Program-made: the position numbers and the translations under genes
Part shown: positions 14,600-62,315 of the stretch, one piece after another
Position numbering within the stretch: the first letter of the stretch is position 1
How the letters are laid out: every line of letters begins with the position of its first letter
Notes under the pieces: generated by a model
Seen by the model: the letters and a program-made list of their open reading frames with translations, nothing else
What the model was told of the DNA's origin: nothing
Databases searched by the model: none
DNA from: Desulfarculus baarsii DSM 2075
Lineage (GTDB): Bacteria > Desulfobacterota > Desulfarculia > Desulfarculales > Desulfarculaceae
Direction: 5' to 3'
Length of the DNA stretch: 64,000 nucleotides
Assembly: GCF_000143965.1 (NCBI RefSeq)
Contig: NC_014365.1
Span: 461,501 to 525,500, forward strand

Positions 14600-15445
14600 C
14601 ACCGATAAATTCACCCTCGCCCGATTGGATGCTCCAAACCAATTTTCGTGCGCCGCTCATTTCGATTGCGGAAACCAAGACCTGAACGAATTTTTCCGCG
14701 ACGACGCCTCGCTTCACAAAGCACAACTTCTGGCCGAGACATATTATTGCCAGCCGCGCCAGTTGGCGGACGCGGGAGATTTTTTCCCCGTGGCGTTCAT
14801 AAGCTTCGAGGCCGCTGCACGGTGAAACATAACAAATGTTGTAAAAACAGATAATAACCTGTGAAACATGAATTCCACCGTGCGGCGGCTGAAGCGCGCC
14901 ATGGACGGCGCGCCAAATCGCGAGCCTGATTAGGCGAGCGATTTGTGAGGCTTGGCAAAACCGCGCTTTTGCCAAGCCGATGCTGCACGGGGCAGGACGC
15001 CCCCGTGCAGCACTCTCGCTTCATGAACGATAGCATACACATAGCCAGAGATGAACGCAGGGACGACAAGCGAAGCCTTTGGAAACATATCAAGTCGAAC
15101 ATCCCCCATCCCAAGCGGGATTACACGTCGTTTCCGGCCGTCAAAATAGGCCGCCTGGGTGTTGCGTCCGCCTACGCCGGATCGGGCATCGGCACGTATT
15201 TGCTGACCATGACCAAAGACCTGTTTGTCACCGACAACAGGACTGGATGCAGGTTCATCACCGTCGACGCCTACAACAAGCCCGGGGTAATCGCTTTTTA
15301 TTTAAAGAACAGCTTCGCGTTTCTGTGGGGCAAAGACAGCGAGGAACGCACCAGGATCATGTATTTCGACCTGTTGCGCCACAGAGCCGACGACGCCCAG
15401 GCGGCGATTCGCCCCGTCCTTGACCACCCCCCGCCGCTGGGGTAA
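14571..15445 (+). pseudogene. GNAT acetyltransferase (toxin-like) interrupted by a 210-bp mobile element
   Basis: The N-terminal half (14571-14807) carries the family opening FDCGNQDLNEFFRDDA and ends at AFISF. The C-terminal half (15023-15445) resumes with MNDSIHIAR, then the acetyl-CoA region IGRLGVASAYAGSGIGTYLL and CRFITVDAYNKPGVIAFY. Between them lies the mobile element at 14808-15017 plus one copy of the 5-bp target GCTTC. Removing element and duplicate joins ATA AGC TTC ATG AAC in perfect frame, restoring FISFMNDS, which fits the family. So the original gene was a roughly 220-aa GNAT of the type found with small antitoxins. As it stands, translation of the first half ends at 14825 and the second half would need its own start, so it is presumably inactive. 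Confidence 0.88.
14808..15017 (+). mobile_element. Non-autonomous hairpin-string element, copy A (MITE-like)
   Basis: A 210-bp element flanked by direct repeats GCTTC (14803-14807 and 15018-15022). Its ends form a 15-bp imperfect terminal inverted repeat: GAGGCCGCTGCACGG on the left and, read inward from the right, GAGAGTGCTGCACGG. The inside is a row of hairpins: GCGCGCC/GGCGCGC (14894-14913), AAATCGC/GCGATTT (14915-14944), CTTGGCAAAA/TTTTGCCAAG (14951-14976, perfect 10-bp stem) and GCTGCACGGGG/CCCCGTGCAGC (14982-15011, perfect 11-bp stem). It encodes no plausible protein. A near-identical copy lies in opposite orientation at 23368-23539. Copy A has an extra 39-bp AT-rich segment bounded by GTGAAACAT repeats. 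The mobilising transposase is not in the window. Confidence 0.9.
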
Positions 15446-23009: not shown

Positions 23010-23336
23010 TTAGCGGATCAGGGCGTAGGCGTAGTAGGTCGAGGCGTGGGGGCCCATCAGGCCCATCTGTTCGTCGTCGACAAAGAGCTTGGCGTCGTAG
23101 GCCCGCAACAGCTCGCCCATCTGGCGGGCCTTGGCGAAGGAGCGCGTGACGTAGAGCAGCTTCATCACCGACCAGCGGCCGTCGCCGCCCTGCTGGAGAA
23201 AAGTGGCCTCGGGGCTGGCGGTCAGGCCGACGCGGATGTTGCGCGTGGAAAAATTCAGTTGGCCGATGCGCGCGGTCAGCCGCGCAATGACCATCTTCGG
23301 ATCGCCGATGGCGATTTCGGAGTAATCCAATGACAC
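23010..23336 (-). CDS. Conserved-looking protein of unknown function (108 aa)
   Basis: A 108-aa soluble protein starting at GTG 23336, with AGGGG five bases upstream. The open frame continues upstream into the mobile element at 23368-23539, but that extension is element sequence and not part of the gene. The protein has an N-terminal helix-strand stretch (MVIARLTARIGQLNFSTRNIRVGLT), a short Gln/Gly loop (FLQQGGDGRW), and a C-terminal region with LLYVTRSFAKARQMGELLRA and LFVDDEQMGLMG. I do not recognise the family. It precedes paaK on the same strand. Insertion of the element 31 bp upstream of its start has probably changed its promoter. Confidence 0.65.
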   Translation of the reverse strand: MSLDYSEIAIGDPKMVIARLTARIGQLNFSTRNIRVGLTASPEATFLQQGGDGRWSVMKLLYVTRSFAKARQMGELLRAYDAKLFVDDEQMGLMGPHASTYYAYALIR

Positions 23337-23367
23337 CGGCCCCTCCAATGTGGGTCGCCCCTGATTT

Positions 23368-23539
23368 GAGAGTGCCGCGCGGGGGGCGTCCTGCCCCGTG
23401 CAGCATCGGCTTGGCAAAAGCGCGGTTTTGCCAAGCCTCGCAAATCGCACGCCTAATCAGGCTGGCGATTTGGCGCGCCGTCCATGGCGCGCTTCGGCCG
23501 CCGCACGGTAGAATTCATGTTTCACCGTGCAGTGGCCTC
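23368..23539 (-). mobile_element. Non-autonomous hairpin-string element, copy B
   Basis: A 172-bp copy of the element at 14808-15017, inverted relative to it and flanked by direct repeats GATTT (23363-23367 and 23540-23544). Its terminal inverted repeats are GAGAGTGCCGCGCGG and, from the other end, GAGGCCACTGCACGG. By hand alignment it differs from copy A by about eight substitutions and one base indel, besides lacking A's 39-bp insertion. Copy B preserves the outermost hairpin that A has lost (GCACGGT paired with ACCGTGC, 23503-23530), while its opposite terminal stem has decayed (CCGCGCGG instead of CTGCACGG). It lies in the upstream region of the 108-aa gene. Confidence 0.9.
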
Positions 23540-23712
23540 GATTTGATTTTGCCAAAAAACGCCGTGCAATGACAGCGGCCGCGTAAAAAAGTGCCAACGT
23601 GGTCCGGCGGCTGCATAAAAAATATGCGTTTGCGCGGCCCCCGCCGGAAAGGCCGCGCGGGCCTGATGCTCAACATCATGGAATAGCACGGTTTTTAGGC
23701 ATGTGGCCAATT

Positions 23713-23728
23713 TGGCACGGCCCCTGCA
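23713..23728 (+). promoter_or_regulatory. Sigma-54 promoter upstream of a small RNA
   Basis: TGGCACGGCCCCTGCA matches the sigma-54 consensus TGGCACG-N4-TTGCA, with one mismatch in the -12 block (CTGCA) and exact spacing between the GG (23714-23715) and GC (23726-23727). Transcription should start near 23739. An inverted repeat GCATA-N5-TATGC at 23613-23627 is a candidate activator site about 120 bp upstream. Confidence 0.75.
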
Positions 23729-23738
23729 ATATCATGGG

Positions 23739-23827
23739 CCAGACAGCGGACCTACCGCTTCCTCTTCCCAACTCTCCACCCTAAGCCCCGGAAGTAAGCG
23801 CCCAATGCTTCCGGGGCATTCCTTTTT
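23739..23827 (+). ncRNA. Candidate sigma-54-dependent small RNA, about 90 nt
   Basis: A predicted transcript between a near-consensus sigma-54 promoter and a perfect 10-bp terminator hairpin, with no convincing ORF inside. The 5' half is an unstructured pyrimidine-rich tract (ACCUACCGCUUCCUCUUCCC and CUCUCCACC), complementary in type to purine-rich ribosome sites; the 3' end is the terminator stem and its U-run. This is the usual architecture of an Hfq-type trans-acting regulatory RNA. The alternative is a leader with premature termination for the M16 peptidase gene, whose ATG is about 125 bp beyond the terminator. Confidence 0.6.
23785..23827 (+). terminator. Rho-independent terminator of the candidate small RNA
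   Basis: A perfect 10-bp stem, GCCCCGGAAG / CTTCCGGGGC, with a 13-nt loop, followed by ATTCCTTTTT. The remaining gap from 23828 to the M16 gene at 23951 holds its ribosome site GGAG and nothing else I can name. Confidence 0.88.
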
Positions 23828-23950
23828 GGGCCGGTGACTTGGGGTTTGAGCGGCGGCGCGAGTCTGCTATCCTGGGCCCAGAGCCGCGCCGGGTTCAAAT
23901 TTTCATACCGGCCGCCCAAACGCTTCTCGATCACGGAGTATACTGCCTTG

Positions 23951-26632
23951 ATGCGCAAAAAATCGTGGTTGGCGCTGCCCGCGCTTTTGGCCTTGTGGCT
24001 GGCCCTCGCGCCGGCGGCCCAGGCCAACGAGCCCATTCGCCACAAACTGCCCAACGGCGTCACCGTCATCACCAAGCAAAACCACGAAGCGCCGGTGGTG
24101 GCCATTCAGGTGCTGGTGCGGGCCGGTTCGGCCTTTGAAAACGAGCGTGAGCGGGGCATCACCCACCTCATCGAGCACATGATCTTCAAGGGCACGCCCA
24201 CCCGCCCGGCCGGCCAGATGGCCCGCCAGATCGAGGCCCTGGGCGGCCAGATCAACGCCTACACCTCGCTGGACCACACCAAGTACTATGTCGAGACGGC
24301 CAGCCAGAACGCGGCTCAGGCCCTGGATATTTTGGCCGACGCCGTGGTCAACGCCCAGTTCGACCCCGCCGAGCTGGCCCGCGAAAAAGAAGTGGTCGTC
24401 GAGGAAATCCGCATGAATCAGGACGACCCCGACCGGCGGCGTTTCCAGGCTCTGATGACCGCGGCCTTTGGCGACCACCCCTACGGTCGGCCGGTGATCG
24501 GCACCGAGGCCTCGGTGCGGGCCATCAGCCGCCAGGACATCCTGGATTATCGCGCCAAGTGGTATCGCGGGCCGGGCATGGTGGTGGTGGCGGTGGGCGA
24601 TTTCCAGACCGAGCAGCTCTTGCCGCGCATCGAAAAGGCCTTTGCCGCCGTGCCGGCCCAGGCCCAGCCCGAGTTTAGCCTGCCGCCGGCCAACGTCACG
24701 CCCGGCCCGCGCCTGGTCGTCCTGCGCGAAGACGTGCGCCAGGCCGCCGTGGAGGCCGCCTGGCTGATCCCCGGCCTGCCCTCCGAGCAGGTCTTCGCCC
24801 TGGACATGGCCGCGACCATCTTGGGCGAGGGCAAGACCAGCCGGCTTTACAAGGAGCTCAAGCACGCCGAGGGCCTGGTCGACGCCGTGTCGTGCTCGGC
24901 CTATACGCCCGTGGCCCTGGGGCTTTTCGATATTGACGCCAGCCTGGCCCCCAAGCTGGCCGACAAGGCCTGGCCCCGCGCCCTGCAACTGGCCGGCGGG
25001 TTGATGGCCAGGCCGCCCCAGGTCGACGAACTGGCCCGGGCCAAGGTCAACCTGGCCGCGGCCTTCGTGCGCATGCGCCAGACCATGGCCGGCCAGGCCG
25101 GCACGCTGGGCTATTTCGAGATGATGCGTGGCGGCTTCGAACACGTGCAGGACTACATCGACCAGTTCGCCGCCGTCGACGCCGACCGGGTGGCCGAGGT
25201 GGCCCGCGAGCACCTGCGCCCGGAAAACCTCACCCTGGTGCTCCAGTTGCCCGAAGGCGCGCCGGCCCCCGATCAAGCCGCCCTGGCCAAGCTGGCCCAG
25301 GAGGCCTACGCCCAGGCCCTGGCCGCCGCGTCCGCGCAGGGCCCCACCGCCGCCCCGCCGGCCGCCCAGCCCGTGGCCGGCCCGCGGCCAGCCAACGCCA
25401 GCGACGGCCAGGCGCGCAAGGAAACGTTGCCGAACGGCCTGACGGTCATTGTCAAGCCGGCCCATGAGCTGCCCCTGGTCGAGATGGTCCTGGCCGCGCC
25501 GGGTGGCCAGGCCGCCGAGACGCCCCAGGACGCCGGCTCGCGCCAATTGTGGGCCAGTTGCCTGACCCGTGGCGCGGCCGGCCGCTCGTTCCAGGAACTC
25601 AGCGCCATCCTGGAAGGCATGGCCGCCGGCATGGGCGGCTTTTCCGGCAAAAGCAGCGGTGGGCTGACCGCCAGCTTCCTGGCCCAGGACTGGCGGCGCG
25701 GCCTGGAGCTGCTGGCCGAGGTCTGGCTGCGGCCCGACTTCCCCGCCGCCGAGGTCGCCCGGGCCAAGGCCGAACAGGCCGCGGCCCTGCGCGCCCAGAT
25801 GGACGAGCCCGTGGCCCGGGCCTTCAACGCCTTCCGGCCCCTGCTTTACGGCGATCACCCCTACGCCATGAACCCCCTGGGTTCGGCCGAGTCGTTGGCC
25901 CGGCTGGATCGTCAGGCCCTCGTGGCCGTGCACCAGGCCATGCGCGGCCCCGGCGGCGTGGTGCTGACCATCGTCGGCGACGTGGACCCTGGTCAAACCA
26001 TGGCCGCGGTCAGGGAGCTTTTCGGCGCGGCCCAGGGCCAGGCCCGGACGCCGGCCCCGCCCGCCGCCCCGGCCCTGACCAAGGCCAGAACCCGGCATAT
26101 CGCCGACCCCCAGGCCAAGCAGACCCAGATCATCATCGGTTACATCGCCCCTGACGCCACCGACCCCCGGCGGCCGGCCATGGAGCTTCTGGAGGCCATC
26201 CTGGGCGGCCAGGGCGGCCGGCTGTTCGGCGACCTGCGCGACAAGCGCTCGCTGGCCTACAGCGTCCAGCCATTCTATGGCCAGGCCAAGCAACTGGGCG
26301 TGTTCGGCTTTTACATGGGCGTGGGGCCGGGCAAGGCCAAGGCGGCCATCGCCGGCCTGAACGAACACATCGCCCGCTTGGCCGCCACCCCGCCCAAGGC
26401 CGAGGAGATGAACCGGGCCAAGGCTTTTCTGTTGGGCGGCTGGGCCATCGGCCTGCAAACCTATCAGGCCCAGGCCATGACCATGACCGCCGACGAACTG
26501 CTGGGCCTGGGTTATCGGGATTACCTGCGCACCCCGGAGCGCGTCCAGGCCCTCGCCCCGGGCGACATCCTGCGGGCGGCCAAGGATGTCTTCGCGCCCC
26601 AGCGTCAGGCCTTGCTGACTCTGGGCCTCTAG
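23951..26632 (+). CDS. Exported M16 (pitrilysin-like) peptidase, two fused M16 units
   Basis: An 893-aa protein with a signal peptide (about residues 1-25, cleavage near AAQANE). The first M16 unit carries the inverted zinc motif HLIEH (residues 72-76) and the downstream Glu ligand in EKEVVVEEIRMNQDD. The second unit (from about 485, KETLPNGLTVIVKPAHELPLVEM) lacks HxxEH (LWASCLTRGAAGRSF), so it is the inactive clamshell half. Bacterial M16B proteins often occur as an active/inactive pair of genes; here both halves are fused with an Ala/Pro-rich linker (about 455-485). They clear peptides in the periplasm. The start ATG 23951 has GGAG 13 bases upstream. Confidence 0.93.
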   Translation: MRKKSWLALPALLALWLALAPAAQANEPIRHKLPNGVTVITKQNHEAPVVAIQVLVRAGSAFENERERGITHLIEHMIFKGTPTRPAGQMARQIEALGGQINAYTSLDHTKYYVETASQNAAQALDILADAVVNAQFDPAELAREKEVVVEEIRMNQDDPDRRRFQALMTAAFGDHPYGRPVIGTEASVRAISRQDILDYRAKWYRGPGMVVVAVGDFQTEQLLPRIEKAFAAVPAQAQPEFSLPPANVTPGPRLVVLREDVRQAAVEAAWLIPGLPSEQVFALDMAATILGEGKTSRLYKELKHAEGLVDAVSCSAYTPVALGLFDIDASLAPKLADKAWPRALQLAGGLMARPPQVDELARAKVNLAAAFVRMRQTMAGQAGTLGYFEMMRGGFEHVQDYIDQFAAVDADRVAEVAREHLRPENLTLVLQLPEGAPAPDQAALAKLAQEAYAQALAAASAQGPTAAPPAAQPVAGPRPANASDGQARKETLPNGLTVIVKPAHELPLVEMVLAAPGGQAAETPQDAGSRQLWASCLTRGAAGRSFQELSAILEGMAAGMGGFSGKSSGGLTASFLAQDWRRGLELLAEVWLRPDFPAAEVARAKAEQAAALRAQMDEPVARAFNAFRPLLYGDHPYAMNPLGSAESLARLDRQALVAVHQAMRGPGGVVLTIVGDVDPGQTMAAVRELFGAAQGQARTPAPPAAPALTKARTRHIADPQAKQTQIIIGYIAPDATDPRRPAMELLEAILGGQGGRLFGDLRDKRSLAYSVQPFYGQAKQLGVFGFYMGVGPGKAKAAIAGLNEHIARLAATPPKAEEMNRAKAFLLGGWAIGLQTYQAQAMTMTADELLGLGYRDYLRTPERVQALAPGDILRAAKDVFAPQRQALLTLGL

Positions 26633-60533: not shown

Positions 60534-60549
60534 TGCAGGGGACGTGCCA
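60534..60549 (-). promoter_or_regulatory. Sigma-54 promoter of the DHWNVP gene
   Basis: On the minus strand TGGCACGTCCCCTGCA: the -24 block is exact and the -12 block is CTGCA, with correct spacing. Start expected near 60523, leaving a leader of about 37 nt before ATG 60486. The -12 block matches that of the sigma-54 promoter at 23713. Confidence 0.85.

Positions 60550-60695: not shown

Positions 60696-62315
<1,620 letters not shown>

Follow-up and report, generated by a model that had tools for sequence, protein, structure and literature searches.

A 64-kb window of the Desulfarculus baarsii DSM 2075 genome (bases 461501-525500 of the single contig NC_014365.1, 3,655,731 bases; window refers here to this whole stretch, and positions are those of the window unless stated otherwise) contains what is probably a stand-alone sigma-54-dependent small RNA (sRNA) gene of about 90 nt, which would have its regulator in common with a glyA-linked sRNA of the same genome and would act through a C/U-rich tract. 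A sigma-54-dependent sRNA had been proposed at this place in an initial annotation, and the proposal is now supported by the promoter, the terminator, the C/U tract, a family of units of the same build, and a palindrome beside the candidate. The features considered are the following.

14806-15017: repeat copy A, the same interspersed repeat as copy B
23010-23333, minus strand: divergent small gene
23367-23547 (core about 23367-23525), plus strand: repeat copy B, a multi-hairpin interspersed repeat of which the genome has 22 further near-full copies
23713-23728, plus strand: sigma-54 promoter, -24 TGGCAC / -12 CTGCA, predicted start 23737-23741
23739-23827, plus strand: predicted small RNA of about 90 nt, from its fold z-score, its lack of an ORF and a build as in the glyA-linked family
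23745-23759, plus strand: small 5' hairpin AGCGG-ACCUA-CCGCU, from the predicted fold and pair probabilities
23758-23784, plus strand: C/U-rich, mostly unpaired tract CTTCCTCTTCCCAACTCTCCACCCTAA, candidate seed
23785-23827, plus strand: terminator, stem 23785-23796/23806-23817, loop of 9 nt, tail ATTCCTTTTT
23846-23873, plus strand: TTGAGC-16-TATCCT with an extended -10 TG, read from the sequence as a possible sigma-70 promoter of its own for the M16 gene
23892-23909, no strand assigned: candidate enhancer GGTTCAAATTTTCATACC, a match to GGTnCAAAnnTTTGnACC, situated 180 nt 3' of the -24 element of the candidate
23952-26632, plus strand: M16 peptidase gene (PF00675/PF05193), likely start ATG 23952, signal peptide

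The Sigma-54 Promoter of the Candidate sRNA

The promoter of the candidate, TGGCACGGCCCCTGCA, has the canonical GG-N10-GC spacing (TGGCACGgcccCTGCA) and departs from the consensus at a single base, the -12 element having C instead of T. When the window was scanned with a sigma-54 matrix derived from 14 further sites of the same genome, this promoter scored 15.9 and ranked second among ~128,000 positions, which agrees with its earlier description as a near-consensus -24/-12 promoter. The four best scores of the window correspond to this promoter and to three sites upstream of genes, including the site in front of nifH (42725, minus strand). A small zinc-ribbon-like gene is likewise preceded by a sigma-54 site (46046, plus strand), and a strong site at 60534-60549 (minus strand) precedes a small secreted-protein-like gene and directly adjoins an XylR_N/V4R enhancer-binding-protein gene (60696-62315).

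In the whole 3.66-Mb genome, the strict pattern TGGCACN5YTGCW was found 16 times and its reversed control 13 times; because the first number is hardly above the second, the count of strict sites alone provides no evidence. Such a count would also fit the explanation, quite unlikely in our judgment, that promoter and hairpin were paired by accident in a divergent intergenic region and that the palindrome at 23892-23909 serves another regulator, e.g. of the M16 gene. Nevertheless, the sites of the strict class are nearly all placed like real promoters, since 15 of the 16 either precede a gene (amt, flgF, fliD, chemoreceptor genes, and more, the names being a reading of the translations and not database matches) or lie between genes, and one lies inside a gene. 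An accident would also require the chance coincidence of the hairpin, the tract and the palindrome, each of them rare. A single instance of a strong sigma-54 site followed by a pyrimidine run of at least 12 was found in the window, and none in 100 shuffled windows, and genome-wide the combination of site and run gave 3 matches versus 0 for the reversed pattern; the third of these genome matches is on the reverse strand. At a further locus (L068:1501-1720), several hairpins are found in the roughly 210 nt that separate a sigma-54 site from the next gene, and this region may represent an additional structured leader or sRNA.

Predicted Fold, Pyrimidine Tract, and Terminator

The unit of ~90 nt starts about 10 nt 3' of the promoter; in it, an open pyrimidine tract is followed by a hairpin of 12 bp and a T-rich tail. 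The RNA 23739-23829 folds with -30.9 kcal/mol (z = -3.65), and none of 200 shuffled sequences was as good. The tract at 23758-23784 is 81% pyrimidine and has a mean unpaired probability of 0.85, which agrees with the C/U-rich character and the open conformation that the initial annotation had assigned to the 5' half of the RNA, but the small hairpin at 23745-23759 precedes the tract and, therefore, part of the 5' half is paired. A role of this hairpin as a CsrA-type decoy was discarded, its exposed loop having no GGA.

The terminator stem comprises 12 bp with one G-U, of which 10 bp are perfect, and is followed by the tail AUUCCUUUUU. A perfect 10-bp terminator with a U-run had been reported at this place; the 10 perfect pairs are indeed present within the longer stem, whereas the T-run is interrupted by CC. 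The terminator was not called in a mechanical terminator scan, probably because of the size of its loop. As had also been claimed, the region between promoter and terminator contains no credible ORF.

A Conserved Family of glyA-linked Units of the Same Build

A second unit of the same build was found behind glyA at genome positions 3395725-3395818 (L170:1501-1594), where a promoter, the C/U tract CTTCCAACCCTTTTTCTCCTTTCC, a perfect hairpin, and a T-run follow one another. The gene located 3' of this unit is convergent, and thus the unit is not a leader. A DNA search with this unit revealed it in relatives. Among 20 genomes of the bacterial family (D. baarsii included), 18 were positive with a covariance model, as was one genome of the same order, often with two copies per genome (loci L160-L185). 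Most of the family copies examined sit behind glyA (SHMT; PF00464 in D. baarsii), the genus g7 harbors tandem pairs about 200 nt apart, and copies at other loci are present in three genomes (G001, G009, and G020). The core bases GGCA and TTGC of the -24/-12 elements are invariant in the family, and its terminator hairpin covaries, with two-sided changes in 11 of 13 pairs and 0 of 500 shuffles as good. The CTCCTTT core of the family resembles the anti-Shine-Dalgarno end of 16S rRNA. No Rfam match at the gathering score was obtained in the window or at the family loci, and the glyA-linked family is new, the candidate probably being a new sigma-54 sRNA, in the sense that neither appears in Rfam 15 or in the open papers that were searchable.

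One of the copies in G020 follows a sigma-54 enhancer-binding-protein gene, and the closest relative of this regulator among the 14 D. baarsii regulators compared is encoded at about 2129-2130 kb and is 60% identical. At several family loci (L160, L161, L163, L165, L170, and others), the C/U tract of the sRNA recurs in inverted orientation in the DNA upstream of the promoter, and where present this inverted copy covaries with the tract, e.g. in G003 and in D. baarsii. Such an inverted repeat, clear in the D. baarsii glyA-linked copy and in several relatives, is absent in the candidate at 23739.

A Palindromic Candidate Enhancer Downstream of the Candidate sRNA

A de novo motif search upstream of the family, from which the candidate was left out, yielded GGTTCAAAnnTTTGTACC. 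The palindromic candidate enhancer is present in most family copies, generally 102-127 nt 5' of the -24 element, and there is often a second, weaker palindrome some 75-80 nt beyond the first. A TCAACAT element upstream, initially taken to be common to the candidate and the family, was dropped when the motif search gave the palindrome instead.

With a palindrome matrix built without D. baarsii sites, the D. baarsii glyA-linked copy scores 31 and 25 bits. The sequence at 23892-23909 is the best match in the 64-kb window (21.7 bits, versus 8.7 bits for the next one), and no match within 4 bits of it was found in 219 kb of other genome sequence. It has two off-consensus bases and lies downstream rather than upstream of the promoter; sigma-54 enhancers are able to act from either side. 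If bases are modelled as independent, a palindrome of this quality is expected within 500 bp with a probability of 6e-6 at the GC content of the genome and 9e-5 at 50% GC. The palindrome occurs within 1.5 kb of just two of the 16 strict sigma-54 sites, those of the sRNA-like units (the candidate and the glyA-linked one). The window matrix scan showed no other good sigma-54 site near 23892-23909. The genome encodes 28 strong enhancer-binding-protein domains, and the palindrome was found near none of 29 places with such a domain.

The palindrome is located between the hairpin and the M16 gene, which lies on the same strand and starts about 125 nt past the hairpin, an arrangement that would also suit a sigma-54 promoter driving the M16 peptidase gene, with the hairpin as an attenuator in a long 5' leader. 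We consider this explanation unlikely, because in the stretch scanned none of the 12 M16 genes checked in relatives carries a strict sigma-54 site, none has the palindrome upstream, the gene following the equivalent glyA-linked unit in D. baarsii is convergent, and a separate sigma-70 promoter can be drawn for the M16 gene, although a weak one (8 of 12 matches, under the scan threshold).

Relationship of the Candidate sRNA to the Family and to the Adjoining Repeat

The initial annotation had suggested to check the conservation of promoter and terminator in relatives, and this check did not favor the candidate, since a DNA search of 60 related genomes (no second genome of the genus included) detected no relative of it. 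A 22-nt match inside a thiolase gene, seen among these 60 relatives, was taken as chance, and a scan of the genome collection for the promoter plus CTTCCTCTTCCC gave 15 matches that by eye looked coding or unrelated, none of them being recognised as an sRNA. The family covariance models scored the candidate at 10.8 and 11.2 bits, which is chance level; a chance match inside a coding gene reached 17.7 bits. The conserved CCAGCTTC...CTTTTCTCCTTTCC tract of the family is absent from the candidate, and the CCAGCTT motif and the CTCCTTT tract are replaced by CCGCTTCCTCTTCCC and CTCTCC, respectively. Both this lack of conservation in relatives and the failure of the family models to recognise the element would be expected from the accidental pairing considered above. 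In terms of sequence, homology of the candidate to the glyA-linked family is not demonstrable; their functional likeness is proposed because of the common order of parts and the common enhancer. The candidate may be a diverged paralogue of the glyA-linked sRNA.

The candidate and a copy of an interspersed repeat both lie between the small gene at 23010-23333 and the M16 gene, copy B being 165 nt upstream of the sigma-54 promoter. The mobile element reported beside the candidate is thus a real repeat. It measures about 160-210 nt, contains several hairpins, and is present in 23 near-full genome copies in all, plus fragments; one copy also adjoins the glyA-linked unit. Because the repeat is downstream of the glyA-linked unit and upstream of the candidate, its position with respect to the promoter varies, and it seems incidental to the sRNA. 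The proximity of this mobile repeat, together with the low family score, the broken T-tail, and the displaced enhancer, would agree with a copy of the glyA-linked sRNA that has decayed or been transplanted and no longer functions. However, promoter and hairpin are intact, and a 12-bp stem and an open tract are not expected to survive random decay, which makes such a loss of function very improbable.

Proposed Mechanism and Significance

For a functional sRNA gene, which is the reading we favor, we infer a mode of action in which an ATP-driven enhancer-binding protein would sit at the palindrome and be brought to the promoter by DNA looping, and the sigma-54 RNA polymerase would start near 23739 only once this activator opens the promoter. 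The transcript would end at the hairpin 23785-23817, and its open C/U tract would base-pair with the purine-rich ribosome-binding regions of mRNAs to lower their translation. One regulator would be common to the candidate and to the conserved glyA-linked sigma-54 sRNA of the same genome. The target prediction with the C/U tract that the initial annotation had recommended gave nothing convincing within the window beyond GC-rich pairing. A search of the D. baarsii genome for Hfq (PF17209) was empty, with positive controls, and hence pairing would be unaided or would involve another chaperone. More tentatively, the candidate and the glyA-linked RNA might be the two branches of a new regulon of sigma-54 sRNAs in this bacterial family, Hfq-less, Qrr-like and with one activator, in which the enhancer of the candidate lies downstream of the sRNA.

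Sigma-54-dependent sRNAs are few, and known ones such as Qrr and Pxr, and likewise GlmY and CrcZ, stand at decision points of cell physiology. The conserved family, mostly beside glyA and with a defined enhancer, offers a directly testable sRNA regulon, and the fact that Hfq was not detected raises the question of how such RNAs find their targets.

Comparison with Known Systems

The closest known systems appear to be Qrr, Pxr, and Dv_sRNA2, which the candidate would resemble in the kind of arrangement, the likeness being one of layout. The Qrr sRNAs of the LuxO/sigma-54 system of Vibrio (PMC10162802) are, as predicted for the candidate, short intergenic RNAs with their own sigma-54 promoter and a terminator, they have an enhancer site, of which the palindrome beside the candidate would be the counterpart, and they resemble the glyA-linked family in having several copies per genome and, in the case of G020, an enhancer-binding-protein gene beside one copy. 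In contrast to Qrr, the candidate has no Rfam match, its fold consists of one strong terminal and one small 5' hairpin, and no Hfq gene was found in its genome. Pxr of Myxococcus xanthus has an apparent sigma-54 promoter and is located downstream of a sigma-54 response-regulator gene, with tandem paralogues in Cystobacter (PMC5568312), and these three traits are points of likeness; it differs from the candidate, which lacks an Rfam match, in its three predicted stem-loops. Dv_sRNA2 of Desulfovibrio vulgaris, a target of the response regulator DVU0679 that lies downstream of the regulator gene (PMC3333781), is similar as an sRNA under a response regulator in a sulfate reducer, compared here by description. 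Finally, the glyA-linked family differs from the candidate in that its enhancer is upstream rather than downstream and in its family-only CCAGCTTC...CTTTTCTCCTTTCC tract, but both have the sigma-54 site, the C/U tract, and the terminal hairpin in the same order and are accompanied by the same palindrome.
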